Below are positions 4,335 to 12,388 of a stretch of 35,003 nt of DNA, in pieces (within the stretch, counting starts at the first letter, position 1; each line of letters opens with the position of its first letter). The position numbers and the translations under genes were made by a program. Source of the DNA: Balneolales bacterium (GTDB lineage: Bacteria; Bacteroidota; Rhodothermia; Balneolales; Natronogracilivirgulaceae); assembly GCA_007131625.1 (NCBI GenBank), contig SLQC01000040.1, positions 1 through 35,003 of the forward strand, read 5' to 3'. The notes beneath the pieces are model-generated. The model was not told where the DNA came from and did no database searches. It saw only the letters and a program-made list of their open reading frames with translations.

Positions 4335-5117
4335 ATGAAGATGCTCATGACAGAAAAACCGTGGCTGATCGCCGAAACCAACTTTAAAACGGTGAAAGAA
4401 ACAACCTATGATGTGGCCATTTTACCATGGGGTGCAACGGAACCGCACAACTATCATCTGCCCTATGCTACGGACAATTTTCAGTGTGATCATGTAGCTG
4501 CTGAAGCGGGTCGGCTTGCTTGGGCAAAAGGGGTAAAAACGGCCGTTTTACCGACTGTTCCTTACGGGGTTCAGACCGCCATGCTCGATCTGCCGTTATG
4601 TATCAACATGAATCCGTCGACCCAGGAAGCACTGCTCGGGGACATTGCCCGGTCACTGGAGGGTCAGGGAATCACCAGGCTGGTGATCCTGAACGGACAT
4701 GGCGGCAATGATTTTCACCAGATGATCCGGGAACTGAAACCTGATCTAAAAATTTTAATATGTACACTGAACTGGTATCAGGCAGCCGATTGGCACCGAT
4801 ATTTCGAGGAGCCCGGTGATCACGCCGGGGAAATGGAAACCAGTTCGATCCTGCACATTCGTCCTGAACTGGTCAGGCCGCTATCCGAAGCGGGTGATGG
4901 CAAGGAGCGAAAATTCCGAATCAAGGCGATGAAGGAAGGATGGGTCTGGACTCCGCGTGAGTGGTCTGAGATCTCGGATGATACCGGGGTCGGAAATCCG
5001 ATACAGGCTACAGCTGAAAAAGGTGCCCGGTTTCTTGAAGTTGCATCACGTAATATTGCCGAATTTCTGGTAGATTTGGCCGGGACAGATCCGGATGTAA
5101 TGTATGATGCGGATTGA
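4335..5117 (+). CDS. Creatininase family protein
   Basis: AILPWGATEPHNYHLPYATDNF and LVILNGHGGNDFHQMIREL match creatininase metal-binding motifs; DHAGEMETSSIL. Confidence 0.9.
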   Translation: MKMLMTEKPWLIAETNFKTVKETTYDVAILPWGATEPHNYHLPYATDNFQCDHVAAEAGRLAWAKGVKTAVLPTVPYGVQTAMLDLPLCINMNPSTQEALLGDIARSLEGQGITRLVILNGHGGNDFHQMIRELKPDLKILICTLNWYQAADWHRYFEEPGDHAGEMETSSILHIRPELVRPLSEAGDGKERKFRIKAMKEGWVWTPREWSEISDDTGVGNPIQATAEKGARFLEVASRNIAEFLVDLAGTDPDVMYDAD

Positions 5118-5216
5118 TATATTAACCGTAGAGTAAGCGGTCCAGGTTTTTAAATCCCGCATTTAAATATTTGTATGCATATGCTGGATACAGAATCAAT
5201 AGAAATTTCTTTCATT

Positions 5217-5235
5217 AAAAAAAGGCCCAACGGCC
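5217..5235 (-). terminator. Candidate intrinsic terminator of the minus-strand DUF4382 gene
   Basis: Minus strand reads GGCC-GTTG-GGCC followed by TTTTTTT, 78 bp past the DUF4382 stop. Confidence 0.5.
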
Positions 5236-5313
5236 AGTTGATGCCGTCTGTAGGGTATCAATCAGGCCGCCAGGCCTAAACCTGGAACTTTGGGTCGGAT
5301 TTGTTACAAGTTG

Positions 5314-6153
5314 TTATAAGTCAATGGTGCCAAGATCCGTGTCTTCGCCTGCCGTCACCTCGACATCGGGTATGACCTGACTTTCATATCCTTCCAAAGT
5401 GGGTTCAATCGACACATCATACGTGTTTTCGGGTAATCCGAGCAGCTGGAATTCACCGGTAATTTTCTCACTGCGTGTTGAAGAGACCGTGTCTTCACCA
5501 ACGATTGCATAAATCCAAGGTTCGGCTTCCGCCGGAGCCACAACACCACTGATAGTACCGGTTTCGATCAGGGCATAAGCTCGGATAACCGGTTTTAACA
5601 GATAAGGTTCGACCTTACTTTGTCCCCGGCCACGCTTTACTATGGAACGCTTAACATCAAAATCGAGCGCCAGTGTGGTGATCAATCCTTCCTGAATTTC
5701 CGCATCAATGTTCAGTTTTAAACCGGATTGCTGCGCGGAAGGTGTTTTGAGCTGATAGGTGCTGTCGTCGACCACAATCGTGTTATTGTTTCCAAGTATC
5801 AATCGGATTTGACGATAAGTGCCTTCATCCAACTCCGCTTCGCCAAGTACTTCCTGGGCGCCATTGATCAGTTCGAGCAGATTATATCGCTCCTGCGGTT
5901 CGCTGATCACAACCCATCCGGTACTTTCGTCGGCCTTGTTGTTCACTTCAACGCGTTGCACATCAATCCATACTTCCTGATAATTGCCGGGGTTGTCATG
6001 AAGTAACACCAGCATGGTTCCTGTACCTGCAGATGCTGATGGACGTGAAGTCTGTTCATCGCATGCTACAATGGAAAAAGCAAAAAGAACTGCAATACCT
6101 GCCGGAATAATTGCATTGGTAAATTGACTCATAATATATTTTAAGCAAATCAT
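5314..6153 (-). CDS. DUF4382-type lipoprotein
   Basis: Signal with lipobox-like FSIVACDEQ; GTMLVLLHDNPGNYQEVWIDVQRVEV..., YNLLELINGAQEVLGEAELDEGTYRQIRLIL pattern of DUF4382. Confidence 0.8.
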   Translation of the reverse strand: MICLKYIMSQFTNAIIPAGIAVLFAFSIVACDEQTSRPSASAGTGTMLVLLHDNPGNYQEVWIDVQRVEVNNKADESTGWVVISEPQERYNLLELINGAQEVLGEAELDEGTYRQIRLILGNNNTIVVDDSTYQLKTPSAQQSGLKLNIDAEIQEGLITTLALDFDVKRSIVKRGRGQSKVEPYLLKPVIRAYALIETGTISGVVAPAEAEPWIYAIVGEDTVSSTRSEKITGEFQLLGLPENTYDVSIEPTLEGYESQVIPDVEVTAGEDTDLGTIDL

Positions 6154-6188
6154 TTAATTATCCTCTTTTTTTTGATTTCTTGACACTC

Positions 6189-6218
6189 ATATGACGCTCA
6201 ATCGACCGAATGGTTACA
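6189..6218 (-). promoter_or_regulatory. Candidate ECF sigma promoter (-35 TGTAAC, -10 CGTCATAT) upstream of DUF4382 gene
   Basis: Minus strand TGTAACCATTCGGTCGATTGAGCGTCATAT; shares TGTAAC and GAGCGTCATAT with the site upstream of the ECF sigma gene, spacer 16 (GTAAC to CGTC). Confidence 0.5.
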
Positions 6219-6352
6219 ATAGTAAATATGCCATTCCGGAATTTGTCATTTTATAGTTCGGGTAAGGAAAAAATAATGTCTGAAAAGAAGAGAGTCGCGG
6301 GAAATGTGTTTACAAAATGGTGTATCAGGTAGGTGCATGCGCAACGGAATGA

Positions 6353-7321
6353 CTATCTATCCCGTCCGGGTGGTGTCTCCGGACGACGGCCACGGCCGGG
6401 ATGATCATCCCGGTCGCCATTTCTGTCAAGGCCAGGTGGTATGAATCCGGGCGGACCACCACCGACATTGCCCTGGAACAGATTTTCCAAAATATGTTGT
6501 GCAGGAATTCCCTCACCCAACTGATGCTGAATGCCTTGGGCAATATTCTCAATTGGCAACCGGCTTTGAAACTGTGCGGAACGAAATGCATCCGGCAGCT
6601 GCTGAATCTCCGTCGCGGAGAATCCGGCATTCAAAGCCCGTACAAGAATTCTGTTGCTCATCGACTGATCATCTTCGGAAGTGGGAAGGTCAGGTAATAC
6701 ACGAACAGCCGTGGCCACCGGTGTCATTCCGCTTCGCTCAGTAGCTCTTTCAGAGACGACCTGCTCCAGAAAATCCCTGATCGACTCTTCCCTGATATTG
6801 TGCTGTAACGCATAAGAGGTATTTTCAAGAACCATGTCCCGGTATGAACGGGCAGCCACACCTGCATCCCGGGAACCTCTTCCTTTTTCGATCATGGCTC
6901 GCACTTCATCCCTGGCCAACCAGGGATCGACCAGAGCCGCCGCCCTGGCAAACCCACTTTCCATCTGATCAAGGACCTGCCGAATAGTATGTGGGGGCAC
7001 ACGTTTTGCCATCCCTTCCATAGCTTTCAGCAAAACGGGATGCCAAGGCAGGTCTTGCTCAACCAGGGAGATCGCCGGAGCGACCATTCCGTTCACATCT
7101 TCAGGGGATATCTGCCGGTTTTGTGCCCTTGCAAAAAGAGTTTCGAGACGTTCCCGGTCGATACCGGCTGCTACCGCCTCATCATATACCGGTCGGTATT
7201 CATCCGAAATCTGTGCCGCAGCCGGTGATTCCAGGATCAGGATTATCACCACTAACAAAGGCAGTAGTATTCGCAGCCAGTGACGAAATTTGCAAGAATG
7301 TTCATAATATTTGTTTTTCAT
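6353..7321 (-). CDS. Secreted helical hypothetical protein with Gly/Pro/Arg-rich C-terminus
   Basis: Start chosen at 7321 (MKNKYYEHSCKFRHWLRILLPLLVVIILILESPAAAQ, signal peptide), 13 bp after the upstream CDS; tail GGGPPGFIPPGLDRNGDRDDHPGRGRRPETPPGRDR. Confidence 0.7.
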   Translation of the reverse strand: MKNKYYEHSCKFRHWLRILLPLLVVIILILESPAAAQISDEYRPVYDEAVAAGIDRERLETLFARAQNRQISPEDVNGMVAPAISLVEQDLPWHPVLLKAMEGMAKRVPPHTIRQVLDQMESGFARAAALVDPWLARDEVRAMIEKGRGSRDAGVAARSYRDMVLENTSYALQHNIREESIRDFLEQVVSERATERSGMTPVATAVRVLPDLPTSEDDQSMSNRILVRALNAGFSATEIQQLPDAFRSAQFQSRLPIENIAQGIQHQLGEGIPAQHILENLFQGNVGGGPPGFIPPGLDRNGDRDDHPGRGRRPETPPGRDR

Positions 7322-7334
7322 ATCAAACTCGTGC

Positions 7335-8723
7335 TCAATAGTCAATAAAAAGTCTACCGTTTTTACCGCCGAAGCCGTCTCTAACGGTAGATACATTATC
7401 AGGCAACTCCAGCCATTCGTGCCGGCTATTGGTTCGTTTCCTGATTTTGTATTCATATACCCCTGCAGACAGATCAAGTTCTACCCGGTACCGGTTCCTG
7501 CCAGTTCTGTGTAAAGGGATTCCGGGGTCATCCCAATCGATAAAATCTCCGGTTAAGTAGAGCGAAGCATTACCTTTGTATTGAACAGATAGTGTTGCCA
7601 GTAATTTCTGATTCTGATCCAGTGCAAGTTCCTGATCGCGCATCGGATCCGCCGAGTCCGGTTCATACTCCGGTTTTGGTTTTTGATCTTGCTCCTCTCG
7701 TTTTTGTGTATTCCAGCGTATCGATCGAATTTCACCGGTTCGCGATATCGGAAAGGATAACGGAATCTGAACACCAGCGGAAACCTGAAAATCTGAGACG
7801 ATGTCGTTGTCTTCACTTCCGAGCCAAAGGAGTCCGGAGAGTGTACCGGTCAGTGTAACCCAATCTGAATATGGATGGGATACACGGAGGAAAGTACGGA
7901 GAAACCGGTTTTCCAGCCTGATGACTTCATTGACCTGCGCAGTTTCGTTCTCACTGGTGACGGGTATACCTGCAATTGTACCCGGGATGATCAGGGCCCC
8001 ATTGCTCAGGTTACTCTGAAATTCCATCGAATACTGTTCCAGGCCTGTTTGAAGCACAATCGACATTCCGCTTCTGCGGTAGTGCACAGCAGCAACTGAG
8101 ATGGTGAAACCGTCGGCGGGGCGACGTAAATGGGCTAGGCTACTCTGAAAGGTCGTTCTCAATTGCCATCGGTATCTTGGCCAGTATTGGAATTCCAATC
8201 CATATGAGTCGTACCGGCGGGTTTCATCCGGCCGCACCAGTAAACCACGATAAGTCCGCCATCCGGATCCGGCTGAAATTCCAAGTTTTACGAACGGTGA
8301 GGGTACCCACTCCATTCCGGCAAAAAGCCAATTAATGTTACGGCTATAGGTGGATGAGTAGTAACTCCAACCACCGGATGCCCGTGCCGAGAAACCGGAC
8401 GCAATATGCTGTCGGAAAACGGGAGTGAGATATCCGCCGGTCCATGTAGGACGGTCATCGTAAAAATGGAGAAAATGTCCGGCTCCATAAAGGGTGGCAC
8501 TTCGTCCACTGCCTCTCCACCGAAATTGGCCGGCCGGCGACAGAGAAGTAAAGCCGGAAATCCGGCTACGATCCCACTCGGGAATAAAAGGCATCAGGTA
8601 GGTGTTCGACACGGAACCGCCTTCTGCCGACAGAGAGAAGTCGGTTTCCAGACTTTGAGCAATGGAATTGTTCCATACAATCAGGAGTAAAGCCATGGCG
8701 ATTCCAGTCGGAAAATATTTCAT
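7335..8723 (-). CDS. Beta-barrel-like outer membrane protein with C-terminal AMPK/CBM48-type (E-set) domain
   Basis: Start 8723 gives MKYFPTGIAMALLLIVWNNSIAQS signal; alternating amphipathic aromatic strands; C-term SLYLTGDFIDWDDPGIPLHRTGRNRYRVELDLSAGVYEYKIRKR...EWLELPDNVSTVRDGFGGKNGRLFIDY. Confidence 0.75.
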   Translation of the reverse strand: MKYFPTGIAMALLLIVWNNSIAQSLETDFSLSAEGGSVSNTYLMPFIPEWDRSRISGFTSLSPAGQFRWRGSGRSATLYGAGHFLHFYDDRPTWTGGYLTPVFRQHIASGFSARASGGWSYYSSTYSRNINWLFAGMEWVPSPFVKLGISAGSGWRTYRGLLVRPDETRRYDSYGLEFQYWPRYRWQLRTTFQSSLAHLRRPADGFTISVAAVHYRRSGMSIVLQTGLEQYSMEFQSNLSNGALIIPGTIAGIPVTSENETAQVNEVIRLENRFLRTFLRVSHPYSDWVTLTGTLSGLLWLGSEDNDIVSDFQVSAGVQIPLSFPISRTGEIRSIRWNTQKREEQDQKPKPEYEPDSADPMRDQELALDQNQKLLATLSVQYKGNASLYLTGDFIDWDDPGIPLHRTGRNRYRVELDLSAGVYEYKIRKRTNSRHEWLELPDNVSTVRDGFGGKNGRLFIDY

Positions 8724-9565
8724 CACAGATTGACTACTGCATTTTTGTTTCCAAAACCATCTTCCACAAAACGGTTGGCCAGAGGGTCGGTAGCCCATTG
8801 TTCACCGTCCTTGATGAACATATATCGATGTTCACCACGAGGCAACGGAATGGTGCCGGTCCAGGCAACGTCACCGTTAATCGATTGCCGGGTCAAAGTT
8901 ATGGGTTCCCAGTCGCTGAAATCACCAGCTACTGCGACCGATTCAGCATCATTATCAATATAGACAAACCGCATCATTACACGGTCTGTGGTCTCTTCGA
9001 CAATTTGTCGTACCGGGATGTCGCCGGGTGTATCCGGTTCGTCGTGCGTGGTGACGATAAACGGGGAGGCCACAATCAGTAGCAGGAGAGTGGCAGCGAT
9101 GCCTGCTGACCATAACGGCCGCCACATGACCGGACGTGGTTGCCAGAACCGGTTCCAGACTGATACTCGGTCATTGTTGCTGCGGCCTATGTTGCTGCCG
9201 ATTGGTTGATTGTCTTCCCTGGCGTTACCTGCCGGAACATATTCATCCTTTATTATATATGGAGCTTCCTTTTGAAAAATGGCGTTCATCACTCCGTCGA
9301 AAAAAGTATCAGGGACGGAGATCTTTTCTCTGATATCCGCTTGTTCCGATGTGGGAGTGACTGCGGTGACAGGATCAGTTGCGGTGTCTTCTGTCTGGCC
9401 GGTCCGGAAATCCGATGCCAGGTCTTGTCGCAACAGCAGATCAAATTTCAACAACGACCGCATCTCCGGGTCGTCGGCGATATGATGCAACACCTGTCGT
9501 TCTTCTTCACTGGTGAGTTCACCGTCAAGATAGCGTCGCAGCCATTCATCATTTACGGTACTCAT
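8723..9565 (-). CDS. Anti-sigma factor-like membrane protein with C-terminal AMPK/CBM48-type domain
   Basis: N-term NDEWLRRYLDGELTSEEERQVLHHIADDPEMRSLL; single TM AGIAATLLLLIVASPFIV; C-term SVAVAGDFSDWEPITLTRQ...LPRGEHRYMFIKDGEQWATDPLANRFVEDGFGNKNAVVNL; TGATG coupling to the downstream gene. Confidence 0.8.
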   Translation of the reverse strand: MSTVNDEWLRRYLDGELTSEEERQVLHHIADDPEMRSLLKFDLLLRQDLASDFRTGQTEDTATDPVTAVTPTSEQADIREKISVPDTFFDGVMNAIFQKEAPYIIKDEYVPAGNAREDNQPIGSNIGRSNNDRVSVWNRFWQPRPVMWRPLWSAGIAATLLLLIVASPFIVTTHDEPDTPGDIPVRQIVEETTDRVMMRFVYIDNDAESVAVAGDFSDWEPITLTRQSINGDVAWTGTIPLPRGEHRYMFIKDGEQWATDPLANRFVEDGFGNKNAVVNL

Positions 9566-10125
9566 ATTGGTAGCTCCAAATATTGTTTCAATTCTTTTCG
9601 AGCCCGGTGGACCCTGACTTTCAGGGCACCTACAGATACATCAAGTGCTTCGGATATTGCTTCGTACGACATGCCGTCCCGATATTTCATCAACAATGGA
9701 ATGGAGCAGCTTTCGCTAATGCGCTCAAGAGCATTTTGCAGTTGCCCCATCTGCTCACCAGTGGTGATGTTATCGTCTGATGACTGACCATCAGAGTACA
9801 TCTCGTGAGAGTGATCATCTGGAAACTCGGTAAAAACATCGTTATACCTCTGCCGGCGTCGGGTATGATCGATACAATGGTTTTGTGCCAGGCGGTAGAG
9901 CCAGGATGAAAATGCCGAATTTCCCTGATAGGATTGCAGCCGTTCGTATGCTTTTAAAAAAATCTCGTGCGCCATTTCATCTATCTGGTTGCTATTCTTT
10001 TCATACCGCTGAACAACATGGAAAACCAGCGATGCATATCGTTTCATGAGAATACGATACAAATCCTTATCCCCATTAGTGATGCGGGCTATGATATCCC
10101 GGTCAGGCTGGTCGACAAAATCCAT
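9562..10125 (-). CDS. RNA polymerase ECF sigma-70 factor
   Basis: VVQRYEKNSNQIDEMAHEIFLKAYERLQSYQGNSAFSSWLYRLAQNHCIDHTRRRQRYN and C-terminal YRDGMSYEAISEALDVSVGALKVRVHRARKELKQYL; ATGA overlap with anti-sigma gene. Confidence 0.95.
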   Translation of the reverse strand: MDFVDQPDRDIIARITNGDKDLYRILMKRYASLVFHVVQRYEKNSNQIDEMAHEIFLKAYERLQSYQGNSAFSSWLYRLAQNHCIDHTRRRQRYNDVFTEFPDDHSHEMYSDGQSSDDNITTGEQMGQLQNALERISESCSIPLLMKYRDGMSYEAISEALDVSVGALKVRVHRARKELKQYLELPI

Positions 10126-10212
10126 GGTATAAGATACTGTTGGCGTGAGTTCGTTATCGAAGCCAAACGAATGACAATGGTAAATTACCCACGAACGATC
10201 ATATCTGTTACA

Positions 10213-10243
10213 ATATGACGCTCGTAGTTCCGATTAAGTTACA
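10213..10243 (-). promoter_or_regulatory. Candidate autoregulatory ECF promoter (-35 TGTAAC, -10 CGTCATAT) upstream of ECF sigma gene
   Basis: Minus strand TGTAACTTAATCGGAACTACGAGCGTCATAT, spacer 17 (GTAAC to CGTC); same elements as at 6189-6218. Confidence 0.5.
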
Positions 10244-10366: not shown

Positions 10367-12388
10367 ATGCTTTTTTTGCACAAATTTCAGTTTTTTATTT
10401 TACTTACCGCTTTTTTTACTTCTTGCATACCGACTGGTGAGATTCCGGAACCCGGTAGCGGACAGCTGGTTTCCGGTCAGGAAATGGGTATCCCCGAACG
10501 GCCACTTCCGCAGCAGGTCGTTCCACCAAACGAATACCGGAAAGCGGTAGATACGGAAACACGTACCCATGACGGCCGGCCCGGCCCTGCCTACTGGCAG
10601 CAATTTACCGAATACAATATCGACGTTACACTGCATGCCTCTGATCGCAGAATTTCAGCCGTTGCCCGGATCGCTTATCACAACCAGTCCCCTAACACAC
10701 TCCGCCAGTTGCATCTGGAATTGGTGCAGAATCTGCATGCCGAAGGTGCGATCCGTAATCGCCCTGCCGAGGTCACTGGTGGTATACGCCTGAACCGTGT
10801 CACAGCTGAGGGGATCGATTTGAGCAATGAACCGGGTGAACAGTACCGCTATGGCGTCCAGGGAACCCGCATGATTATTCACACCCCGGCACCTGTTGCC
10901 CCGGGAGAAACATCGGAACTTGAAATTGCGTACGAATTCAGGATTCCGCAACAGGGTGCAGGTGGACGGATGGGATATCACGACGACAATCTGTTTTATC
11001 TCGGTTATTGGTACCCGCATATGGTGGTCTATGACGATGTGTTGGGTTGGCACCCCGATCCGTATCGTGGACAAGCCGAGTTTTATCACGGTTTTGCCGA
11101 TTACCATCTGACTGTCCATGCACCGGAACAATGGCTTGTAATGGCGACCGGCGAATTACAGAATGCCGGCGATGTACTTGCACCGGATGTGATGCAACGC
11201 TGGGAGGAGGCAAAACAAAGCGACGAGCCGATACGGATCTATACTGCCGAGTCAGGAGAAATGGCTACAAGGTCTGTTGCGGAGGAAACGGCTGCAGGAT
11301 CTAGCGCAGAGGATGGAAAACTTACCTGGCAATTTTCCGCACAAAATGTTCGCGATGTCGCCTTCAGTGCAACGCGCGAGTCGAACTGGGACGCTGCCCG
11401 AACATCAGTTGGCGATCGCACGGGTGACGGCATTGATGATCACACTGTTATAAACGCTTTCTGGCGTGACCGCGCCCCGCTCTGGTCGGAAGTTGTCTCC
11501 TACCAGCAGCATGCCATTACGTTTTTGTCGGACCTTACCGGATTTGCCTACCCATGGCCTCATATGACAGCTGTCGAAGGAGGCGGTATCATAGGAGGCG
11601 GCATGGAGTATCCGATGATGACTATCATGGGCGATTATAACCAGCGCGGTCAAGAGGCCCTCTATTCGGTCACCGCACATGAACTGGCGCACATGTGGAT
11701 TCCGATGATCGTGAGCACCGACGAACGCCGGTACAGTTGGCTTGACGAAGGCAGTACCGTCTTCAGTACCGCTGAAGCGGTAATGGACTTCTATCCCGAG
11801 CGAAGACCCCATCAGGAAACACAAAGAGCCTACATCCGTGCCGCCCGACAAGGTAATGAAGGCCCGATGATGCAGCGGTCCGACTTTCACTACTCAACGA
11901 CACATTTTATCATCGCTTCCTACCGCAAACCGTCAGCGATTCTTGCCGCCTTGCGAAAAGTTCTGGGGGAGGATATTTTTTGGGAAGCCTATCGAGCTTT
12001 TATCGAAGAATGGGCGTTTAAACAAGCGTATCCATGGGACTTTTTCCGTACCTTTGAACGAATCAGCGGTCGCGATCTCTTCTGGTTCTGGTACAGCTGG
12101 TATTACGAAACATGGGTAATGAATCAGGTAGTGGATGAAGTGGAAGAGACAGAAAAAGGAACCCGTATTGTCATAAGAGACGACGGAAAGGTACCGATGC
12201 CGGTTTACATAACTGTGACCTATGATGGCGACAACCGGACGGAATACAAGATCCCGGTAGATCGTTGGCTTGGTGGAAAGCGAACAGCCGAAATAATCAT
12301 TCCGGAACGAAATGTGCGCCGGGTGGTGATCGATGTGAACATGGAGCTCCCGGACGTCAACCGGCAAAACGCTGTATGGGAGCGCTGA
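10367..12388 (+). CDS. M1 family metallopeptidase (lipoprotein-like)
   Basis: GGGMEYPMMTIMG, TAHELAHMWIPMIVSTDERRYSWLDEGSTVF (HExxH-x18-E), N-term FILLTAFFTSCIPTG. Confidence 0.92.
   Translation: MLFLHKFQFFILLTAFFTSCIPTGEIPEPGSGQLVSGQEMGIPERPLPQQVVPPNEYRKAVDTETRTHDGRPGPAYWQQFTEYNIDVTLHASDRRISAVARIAYHNQSPNTLRQLHLELVQNLHAEGAIRNRPAEVTGGIRLNRVTAEGIDLSNEPGEQYRYGVQGTRMIIHTPAPVAPGETSELEIAYEFRIPQQGAGGRMGYHDDNLFYLGYWYPHMVVYDDVLGWHPDPYRGQAEFYHGFADYHLTVHAPEQWLVMATGELQNAGDVLAPDVMQRWEEAKQSDEPIRIYTAESGEMATRSVAEETAAGSSAEDGKLTWQFSAQNVRDVAFSATRESNWDAARTSVGDRTGDGIDDHTVINAFWRDRAPLWSEVVSYQQHAITFLSDLTGFAYPWPHMTAVEGGGIIGGGMEYPMMTIMGDYNQRGQEALYSVTAHELAHMWIPMIVSTDERRYSWLDEGSTVFSTAEAVMDFYPERRPHQETQRAYIRAARQGNEGPMMQRSDFHYSTTHFIIASYRKPSAILAALRKVLGEDIFWEAYRAFIEEWAFKQAYPWDFFRTFERISGRDLFWFWYSWYYETWVMNQVVDEVEETEKGTRIVIRDDGKVPMPVYITVTYDGDNRTEYKIPVDRWLGGKRTAEIIIPERNVRRVVIDVNMELPDVNRQNAVWER

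Follow-up and report, generated by a model that had tools for sequence, protein, structure and literature searches.

We analysed a 35,003-nucleotide stretch of a Balneolales genome (GenBank assembly GCA_007131625.1, contig SLQC01000040.1; the whole stretch is called the window below), in which five minus-strand genes at positions 5314-10243 form a compact regulatory cassette. An initial annotation, read from the letters alone, had placed here an extracytoplasmic function (ECF) sigma factor, a membrane anti-sigma factor and an exported barrel, the latter two both ending in a family 48 carbohydrate-binding module (CBM48), followed by a secreted helical protein (HEL) and a DUF4382 lipoprotein, and all five open reading frames (ORFs) were found where it had put them (Table 1). 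The sigma factor consists of regions 2 and 4 only, with the anti-sigma gene adjoining. These two genes overlap in an ATGA, as had been noted, and are thereby coupled in translation; the anti-sigma gene and the gene of the outer-membrane protein (OMP) are coupled through TGATG, and 13 nt separate the OMP stop from the HEL start. Ahead of the DUF4382 gene lies a gap of about 200 nt. Because this gap carries its own promoter, a copy of the sigma-gene promoter, the block is, as predicted from its sequence, two transcription units and not one operon: sigma-anti-sigma-OMP-HEL, and DUF4382 separately.

Table 1. Features of the cassette and their positions in the window
Feature	Position	Strand	Description
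ECF sigma factor	9562..10125	-	187 aa; Pfam Sigma70_r2 1.9e-15, Sigma70_r4_2 5.6e-13; NCBIfam sigma70-ECF above cut-off
Anti-sigma factor	8723..9565	-	280 aa; ASD-like cytoplasmic N-terminus, one transmembrane segment, C-terminal CBM48
OMP, outer-membrane barrel with C-terminal CBM48	7335..8723	-	462 aa; signal peptide
HEL, exported, all-helical	6353..7321	-	322 aa; disordered Pro/Gly-rich tail
DUF4382 lipoprotein	5314..6153	-	279 aa; lipobox IVAC; Pfam DUF4382 7.3e-34
P1, predicted promoter of the sigma gene	10214..10242	-	GTAAC-N17-CGTCATA
P2, predicted promoter of the DUF4382 gene	6190..6217	-	GTAAC-N16-CGTCATA
Anti-sigma transmembrane segment	9053..9112	-	about aa 152-171; read from sequence
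Anti-sigma CBM48, AMPK-beta-type, predicted periplasmic	8726..8971	-	aa 199-280; Pfam AMPK1_CBM and PDB profile matches
OMP CBM48	7338..7610	-	aa 372-462; profile match and AlphaFold2 model
Hairpin resembling a terminator, 3' of DUF4382	5229..5248	-	consensus scan only; weak by itself

Plus-strand ORFs flank the cassette on both sides, one creatininase-like (4335-5117) and one M1-type metallopeptidase-like (10367-12388), both named from the appearance of their sequences.

Domain architecture of the cassette proteins

Searching both CBM48-tailed proteins with profile models, a step the initial annotation had suggested, settled the anti-sigma factor more firmly than the OMP. The anti-sigma tail matched AMPK1_CBM at aa 205-279 (8.5e-9; 35.9 bits, above the curated Pfam cut-off of 26.8), in agreement with the proposed order of one transmembrane segment and a C-terminal CBM48, and the family profile matched AMPK-beta CBM chains in the PDB (4yef/1z0m, 1.9e-4). 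The hydrophobic segment ahead of the CBM recurs in the homologues. At the N-terminus a zf-HC2 match (8.6e-4) stayed below cut-off, and the family alignment has the conserved motif Y-L-D-G-E-L...A-D-D-P-E-L-R. The zinc motif HxxxCxxC is absent from the window anti-sigma factor and from its family alignment; a homologue from Elusimicrobia (L188) has a zinc-type version, HIEGCIAC.

For the OMP, the AMPK1_CBM match of the window copy (aa 384-427; 2.9e-4, 21.4 bits) fell below the same cut-off, and relatives in Gemmatimonadota and Latescibacterota scored above it. The claim that a second CBM48 ends the exported barrel is nevertheless supported, since the OMP family profile matched AMPK-beta CBM chains in the PDB at 1.2e-6 and, in the AlphaFold2 model (pLDDT 82), aa 374-460 at the C-terminus form a beta domain of their own, apart from the barrel. 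The top Foldseek matches were porins, e.g., OmpG (2x9k/2iwv). The barrel termini should face the periplasm and place the OMP CBM48 there, and the predicted architecture bears out the proposal of one periplasmic CBM48 on a membrane anti-sigma factor with a partner on an outer-membrane barrel. In one relative (L096, G077) the CBM48 tail of the OMP ORF at 5210-6250 lies in another frame, which looks like a frameshift in the genome or the assembly.

HEL was modelled by AlphaFold2 as an all-helical protein (pLDDT 88). It matched no family in Pfam, no PDB chain and no fold significantly, and a fold search of the PDB gave nothing below E 0.001. The HEL proteins of Balneolota and of Nitrospirota are homologous to each other (hhalign 1.2e-17).

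Distribution of the cassette across phyla

The OMP family was found in 35 of 98 relatives, and the CBM48-tailed anti-sigma gene adjoins it wherever contigs allow. In a gene-neighbourhood survey of 35 loci, also put forward with the initial annotation, the five genes were together in 28 of the 29 whose contigs were long enough, the opposite of rare adjacency; the sole exception (L101) has no DUF4382 gene within 5 kb. This retention excludes chance adjacency. A profile search recovered the anti-sigma factor in 26 of 117 genomes of the class, once in each and in several families. In eight of these loci from outside the order the sigma factor, anti-sigma-CBM48, OMP-CBM48 and HEL again stand together, with DUF4382 nearby in six of the eight and upstream of sigma in five of those six. 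Two Gemmatimonadota-type loci and further families of the class also have DUF4382 next to the module, again upstream of sigma. DUF4382 therefore tracks the module despite its changed position, downstream in the Balneolales loci and upstream of sigma elsewhere. Downstream of the cassette, L075, L076, L077, L079 and L095 carry extra, mutually adjacent copies of HEL and/or DUF4382, as if HEL-DUF4382 moved or duplicated as a unit.

A motif scan of contigs extended the distribution much further, to relatives in Gemmatimonadota, Nitrospirota/Thermodesulfovibrio, Desulfobacterota-type lineages, Acidobacteria, Myxococcales, Latescibacterota, Eisenbacteria, Elusimicrobia, Rokubacteria and others. The combination of sigma factor, CBM48-tailed anti-sigma factor and HEL spans about 50 loci in at least ten phyla. 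Clustering of the ORFs from the 50 loci outside the Balneolota set gave CBM48 proteins in 50, sigma in 47 and HEL in 44, so that HEL, taken at first for an accessory, is the more constant partner. The second CBM48 takes different forms: it is fused to the downstream barrel in Gemmatimonadota, Latescibacterota and Eisenbacteria, and is a small exported protein encoded upstream of sigma in the Nitrospirota and deltaproteobacterial loci, in several cases with a lipobox. The Nitrospirota loci have a separate barrel gene just downstream (BBP2_2-like, a weak match). Its homology to the fused Balneolota barrel was unsupported (hhalign 3.8% and 0.3%), and an argument from fusion therefore holds only by analogy.

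Several further genes were seen around these loci. In L190 the gene between those of anti-sigma and HEL encodes a small lipoprotein that, by eye only, resembles a degenerate CBM48. The Elusimicrobia locus (L188:3021-6951) has a barrel-like gene upstream of sigma and, after anti-sigma, a HEL-like ORF below the detection threshold. Desulfovibrionaceae-type loci encode a further exported protein (L192:7274-8119, with matching ORFs in L195 and L197), which has a tail rich in Gly and Ser, matches HTH_38 weakly and sits behind a TPR/OmpA lipoprotein that itself follows HEL. Outside the cassette, most relatives encode a stand-alone CBM48/AMPK1_CBM protein of about 100 aa (e.g., L002, G000:C21:3993-4202). 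ORF 328-1776 of L005 (G000:C397) encodes an exported-looking protein (482 aa) whose C-terminal part contains a segment resembling AMPK1_CBM (8.7e-4, below cut-off).

Promoter motif and predicted regulon

The sequence TGTAAC-N16/17-CGTCNTA was found upstream of sigma in 32 of 33 related loci and upstream of DUF4382 in 30 of 36, i.e., in 62 of these 69 upstream regions against 0.015 expected from shuffles. It was present upstream of the OMP gene in 0 of 36 and upstream of HEL in 3 of 40 (Fisher p 7e-19 for sigma versus OMP upstreams), a comparison that controls for composition and not for intergenic sequence, as the regions taken for OMP and HEL reach into coding sequence. Homologous loci of Nitrospirota, Deferribacteraceae and Eisenbacteria have the motif too, but it was not found in the Gemmatimonadota loci examined. 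Most simply, its conservation would mean that the cassette's own sigma factor recognises it, and we infer, with this comparative support, that the sigma gene is positively autoregulated from an ECF-type promoter. Because the predicted promoter is common to the sigma and DUF4382 genes, co-regulation of the two units is strongly indicated.

A shared promoter also bears on whether the adjacency is ordinary operon drift of unrelated envelope genes, with no functional coupling between them. The varying position of DUF4382, described above, speaks for drift, but the linkage of five genes in nearly every testable locus, the way in which DUF4382 follows the module even when relocated, and the promoter common to it and sigma all speak against it. 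This explanation was already disfavoured, and we regard it as very improbable.

When seven whole genomes were searched with the strict pattern, each of the five that carry the module had two matches in the cassette and few elsewhere, with zero matches in one of the two genomes that lack it and two in the other; the same pattern read backwards gave 4-12 matches per genome. A regulon reaching beyond the cassette was not borne out, as strict matches outside it were at this control level and those checked (G000 C61, C262) fall within genes. There is one exception, a cassette-type promoter at L104:1501-1528 (G064:C1:215662). The lipoprotein gene 39 nt downstream of it may be an additional member of the regulon there; its product is MbnP-like at best (a weak match) and not DUF4382 by Pfam. 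As the strict matches lie almost solely in the cassette, the predicted regulon is mainly the cassette itself.

Candidate ligands and relation to known systems

Which molecule the CBM48 domains might bind was approached through their conservation. No segment of the cassette is as conserved as the anti-sigma CBM48, whose mean pairwise identity over 30 Balneolota-type loci is 0.67, against 0.50 for the OMP CBM48, 0.48 for sigma, 0.37 for HEL, 0.36 for the remainder of the anti-sigma factor and 0.33 for the barrel. All 75 anti-sigma CBMs compared have the equivalents of W100 and N150 of AMPK-beta, and 66 of the 75 have that of W133; W100 and W133 lie outside the patterns used for the contig scan. 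The L146 equivalent is Phe. The OMP CBMs of Balneolota keep W100, W133 and N150, together with K/R at 126. Since a W100/W133/N150-type site is retained, glycan binding is plausible.

In our judgement there is an even chance that the module is a glycan-responsive, positively autoregulated ECF sigma system of the Gram-negative envelope. In such a system the anti-sigma factor would keep sigma at the inner membrane, and its CBM48 would bind an alpha-glucan-like or other polymer fitting the Trp-Trp-Asn site, which would either be present in the periplasm or reach it by way of the outer-membrane barrel with its CBM48 tail. Changed occupancy of the domain would open the anti-sigma factor to regulated proteolysis and free sigma, which would raise the cassette and hence yield more barrel/CBM48, HEL and surface lipoprotein. 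Between the end of the transmembrane segment and G-x-F-x-x-W lie 24-58 aa (median 39), which suggests that the anti-sigma CBM48 stays near the inner membrane. Because these linkers are short, contact with the outer-membrane CBM across the periplasm would be strained; HEL as a soluble messenger, or a polymer as the ligand, is easier to reconcile with this than direct CBM-CBM contact.

Several observations weigh against this glycan-responsive system. The K126 equivalent is Met in 66 of 75 anti-sigma CBMs, so altered binding is possible, although conservation of the letters within the scan patterns [DE]DGFGN[KR]N or RG[EQ]H[RHN]YMF, including this Met, is partly selection in L122-L201. Conservation of the whole anti-sigma domain could equally mean contact with a protein. 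No second CBM48 was found in some Desulfovibrionaceae and Gemmatimonadota loci that have the CBM48 anti-sigma factor and HEL; the pair is common but not universal, which speaks against strict pairing in the early idea that paired domains sense a glycan, a polymer or each other. No glycan-processing gene was among the recurrent neighbours checked, and glycogen branching enzyme, present in 97 of 98 relatives with or without the module, was uninformative as a correlate.

The main rival reading is a protein ligand, in which the anti-sigma CBM48, an E-set domain, would recognise HEL or the exported CBM48 partner and the module would monitor export or assembly of its own OMP, much as RseA/RseB/DegS do with misfolded porins, with no need of a sugar. 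HEL is the most constant companion (44/50) and persists where the second CBM48 was not seen; the entire CBM48 surface is conserved (67% identity), more than a sugar site requires; K126 is replaced by Met; and a regulon made up mostly of the cassette is what homeostasis of its own products predicts. The retained W100/W133 aromatics and N150 are instead what carbohydrate binding predicts, the median linker of 39 aa makes docking to an outer-membrane CBM difficult, and the partial correlations of a mirror-tree comparison of the CBM48 with its partners single out no one partner. We lean against docking while considering it a serious alternative. It is improbable that the tail serves as a stable cap that senses nothing, with signalling through general proteolysis after envelope stress: many anti-sigma factors are indeed controlled by general site-1 proteases, but this tail exceeds sigma in conservation and has been kept in at least ten phyla. 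Whether the ligand is a protein or a sugar, the cassette probably informs the genome about the condition of a sugar polymer or of a protein at the surface.

A precedent for the sensing of polysaccharide by a CBM-tailed anti-sigma factor is RsgI of Clostridium thermocellum (PMC12203970). The cassette resembles SigI/RsgI in its membrane anti-sigma factor with a cytoplasmic sigma-binding end, one transmembrane segment and an extracytoplasmic carbohydrate-binding module, and in having its own sigma alongside. By analogy it would be RsgI-like in its working but is not an RsgI member, because its sigma is a canonical two-domain ECF factor (r2 and r4_2), its CBM belongs to family 48 instead of CBM3/42, its host has a two-membrane envelope, and its predicted regulon is the cassette itself instead of cellulosome genes; the second exported CBM48 and HEL set it further apart. 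The window proteins gave no RsgI family match in Pfam or NCBIfam. An autoproteolytic periplasmic domain as in RsgI had no match at the Pfam thresholds used, with no directed test, and the linker is short.

Other known systems share parts of this design. The CBM48 domains resemble AMPK beta in sequence family (Pfam AMPK1_CBM; PDB 1z0m, 4yef) and in the W100/W133/N150 site, but they are exported on an anti-sigma factor, barrel or lipoprotein instead of belonging to a kinase subunit or a glycogen/starch enzyme, and in the anti-sigma factor K126 is usually Met. RseA/RseB/SigmaE likewise combine an ECF sigma, a one-transmembrane anti-sigma factor, exported companions and outer-membrane proteins tied to the signal, whereas the cassette has no RseA or RseB Pfam match, a CBM48 as periplasmic part and a predicted local regulon. 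FecI/FecR/FecA are also encoded side by side as ECF sigma, anti-sigma and outer-membrane protein, but no FecR, STN or TonB-dependent-receptor Pfam domain was found in the anti-sigma factor or OMP, and the cassette barrel resembles an OmpG-size porin. A literature search returned no account of an anti-sigma factor with an AMPK1_CBM/glycogen-binding domain or of an ECF sigma with CBM48, although a group of the 2021 ECF re-classification may already cover it, and the cassette is apparently undescribed before, with an unusually wide and uniform distribution.

Tentatively, and a little short of an even chance, we propose a so far undescribed, phylum-spanning class of ECF signalling, in which paired CBM48s, one on an inner-membrane anti-sigma factor and one on an outer-membrane anchor, would act with HEL, as a new helical family, to detect a glycan of the periplasm or the surface and control little beyond the cassette and DUF4382 lipoproteins. 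The cassette gives a first context for DUF4382 lipoproteins and for the HEL family, and TGTAAC-N16-CGTC provides a clean promoter as a handle for testing the module. The ligand class of the sensor domain is known for few anti-sigma factors; if the proposal is true, a module kept intact over at least ten phyla with the glycogen-sensing fold of AMPK would be a direct handle on envelope sensing.

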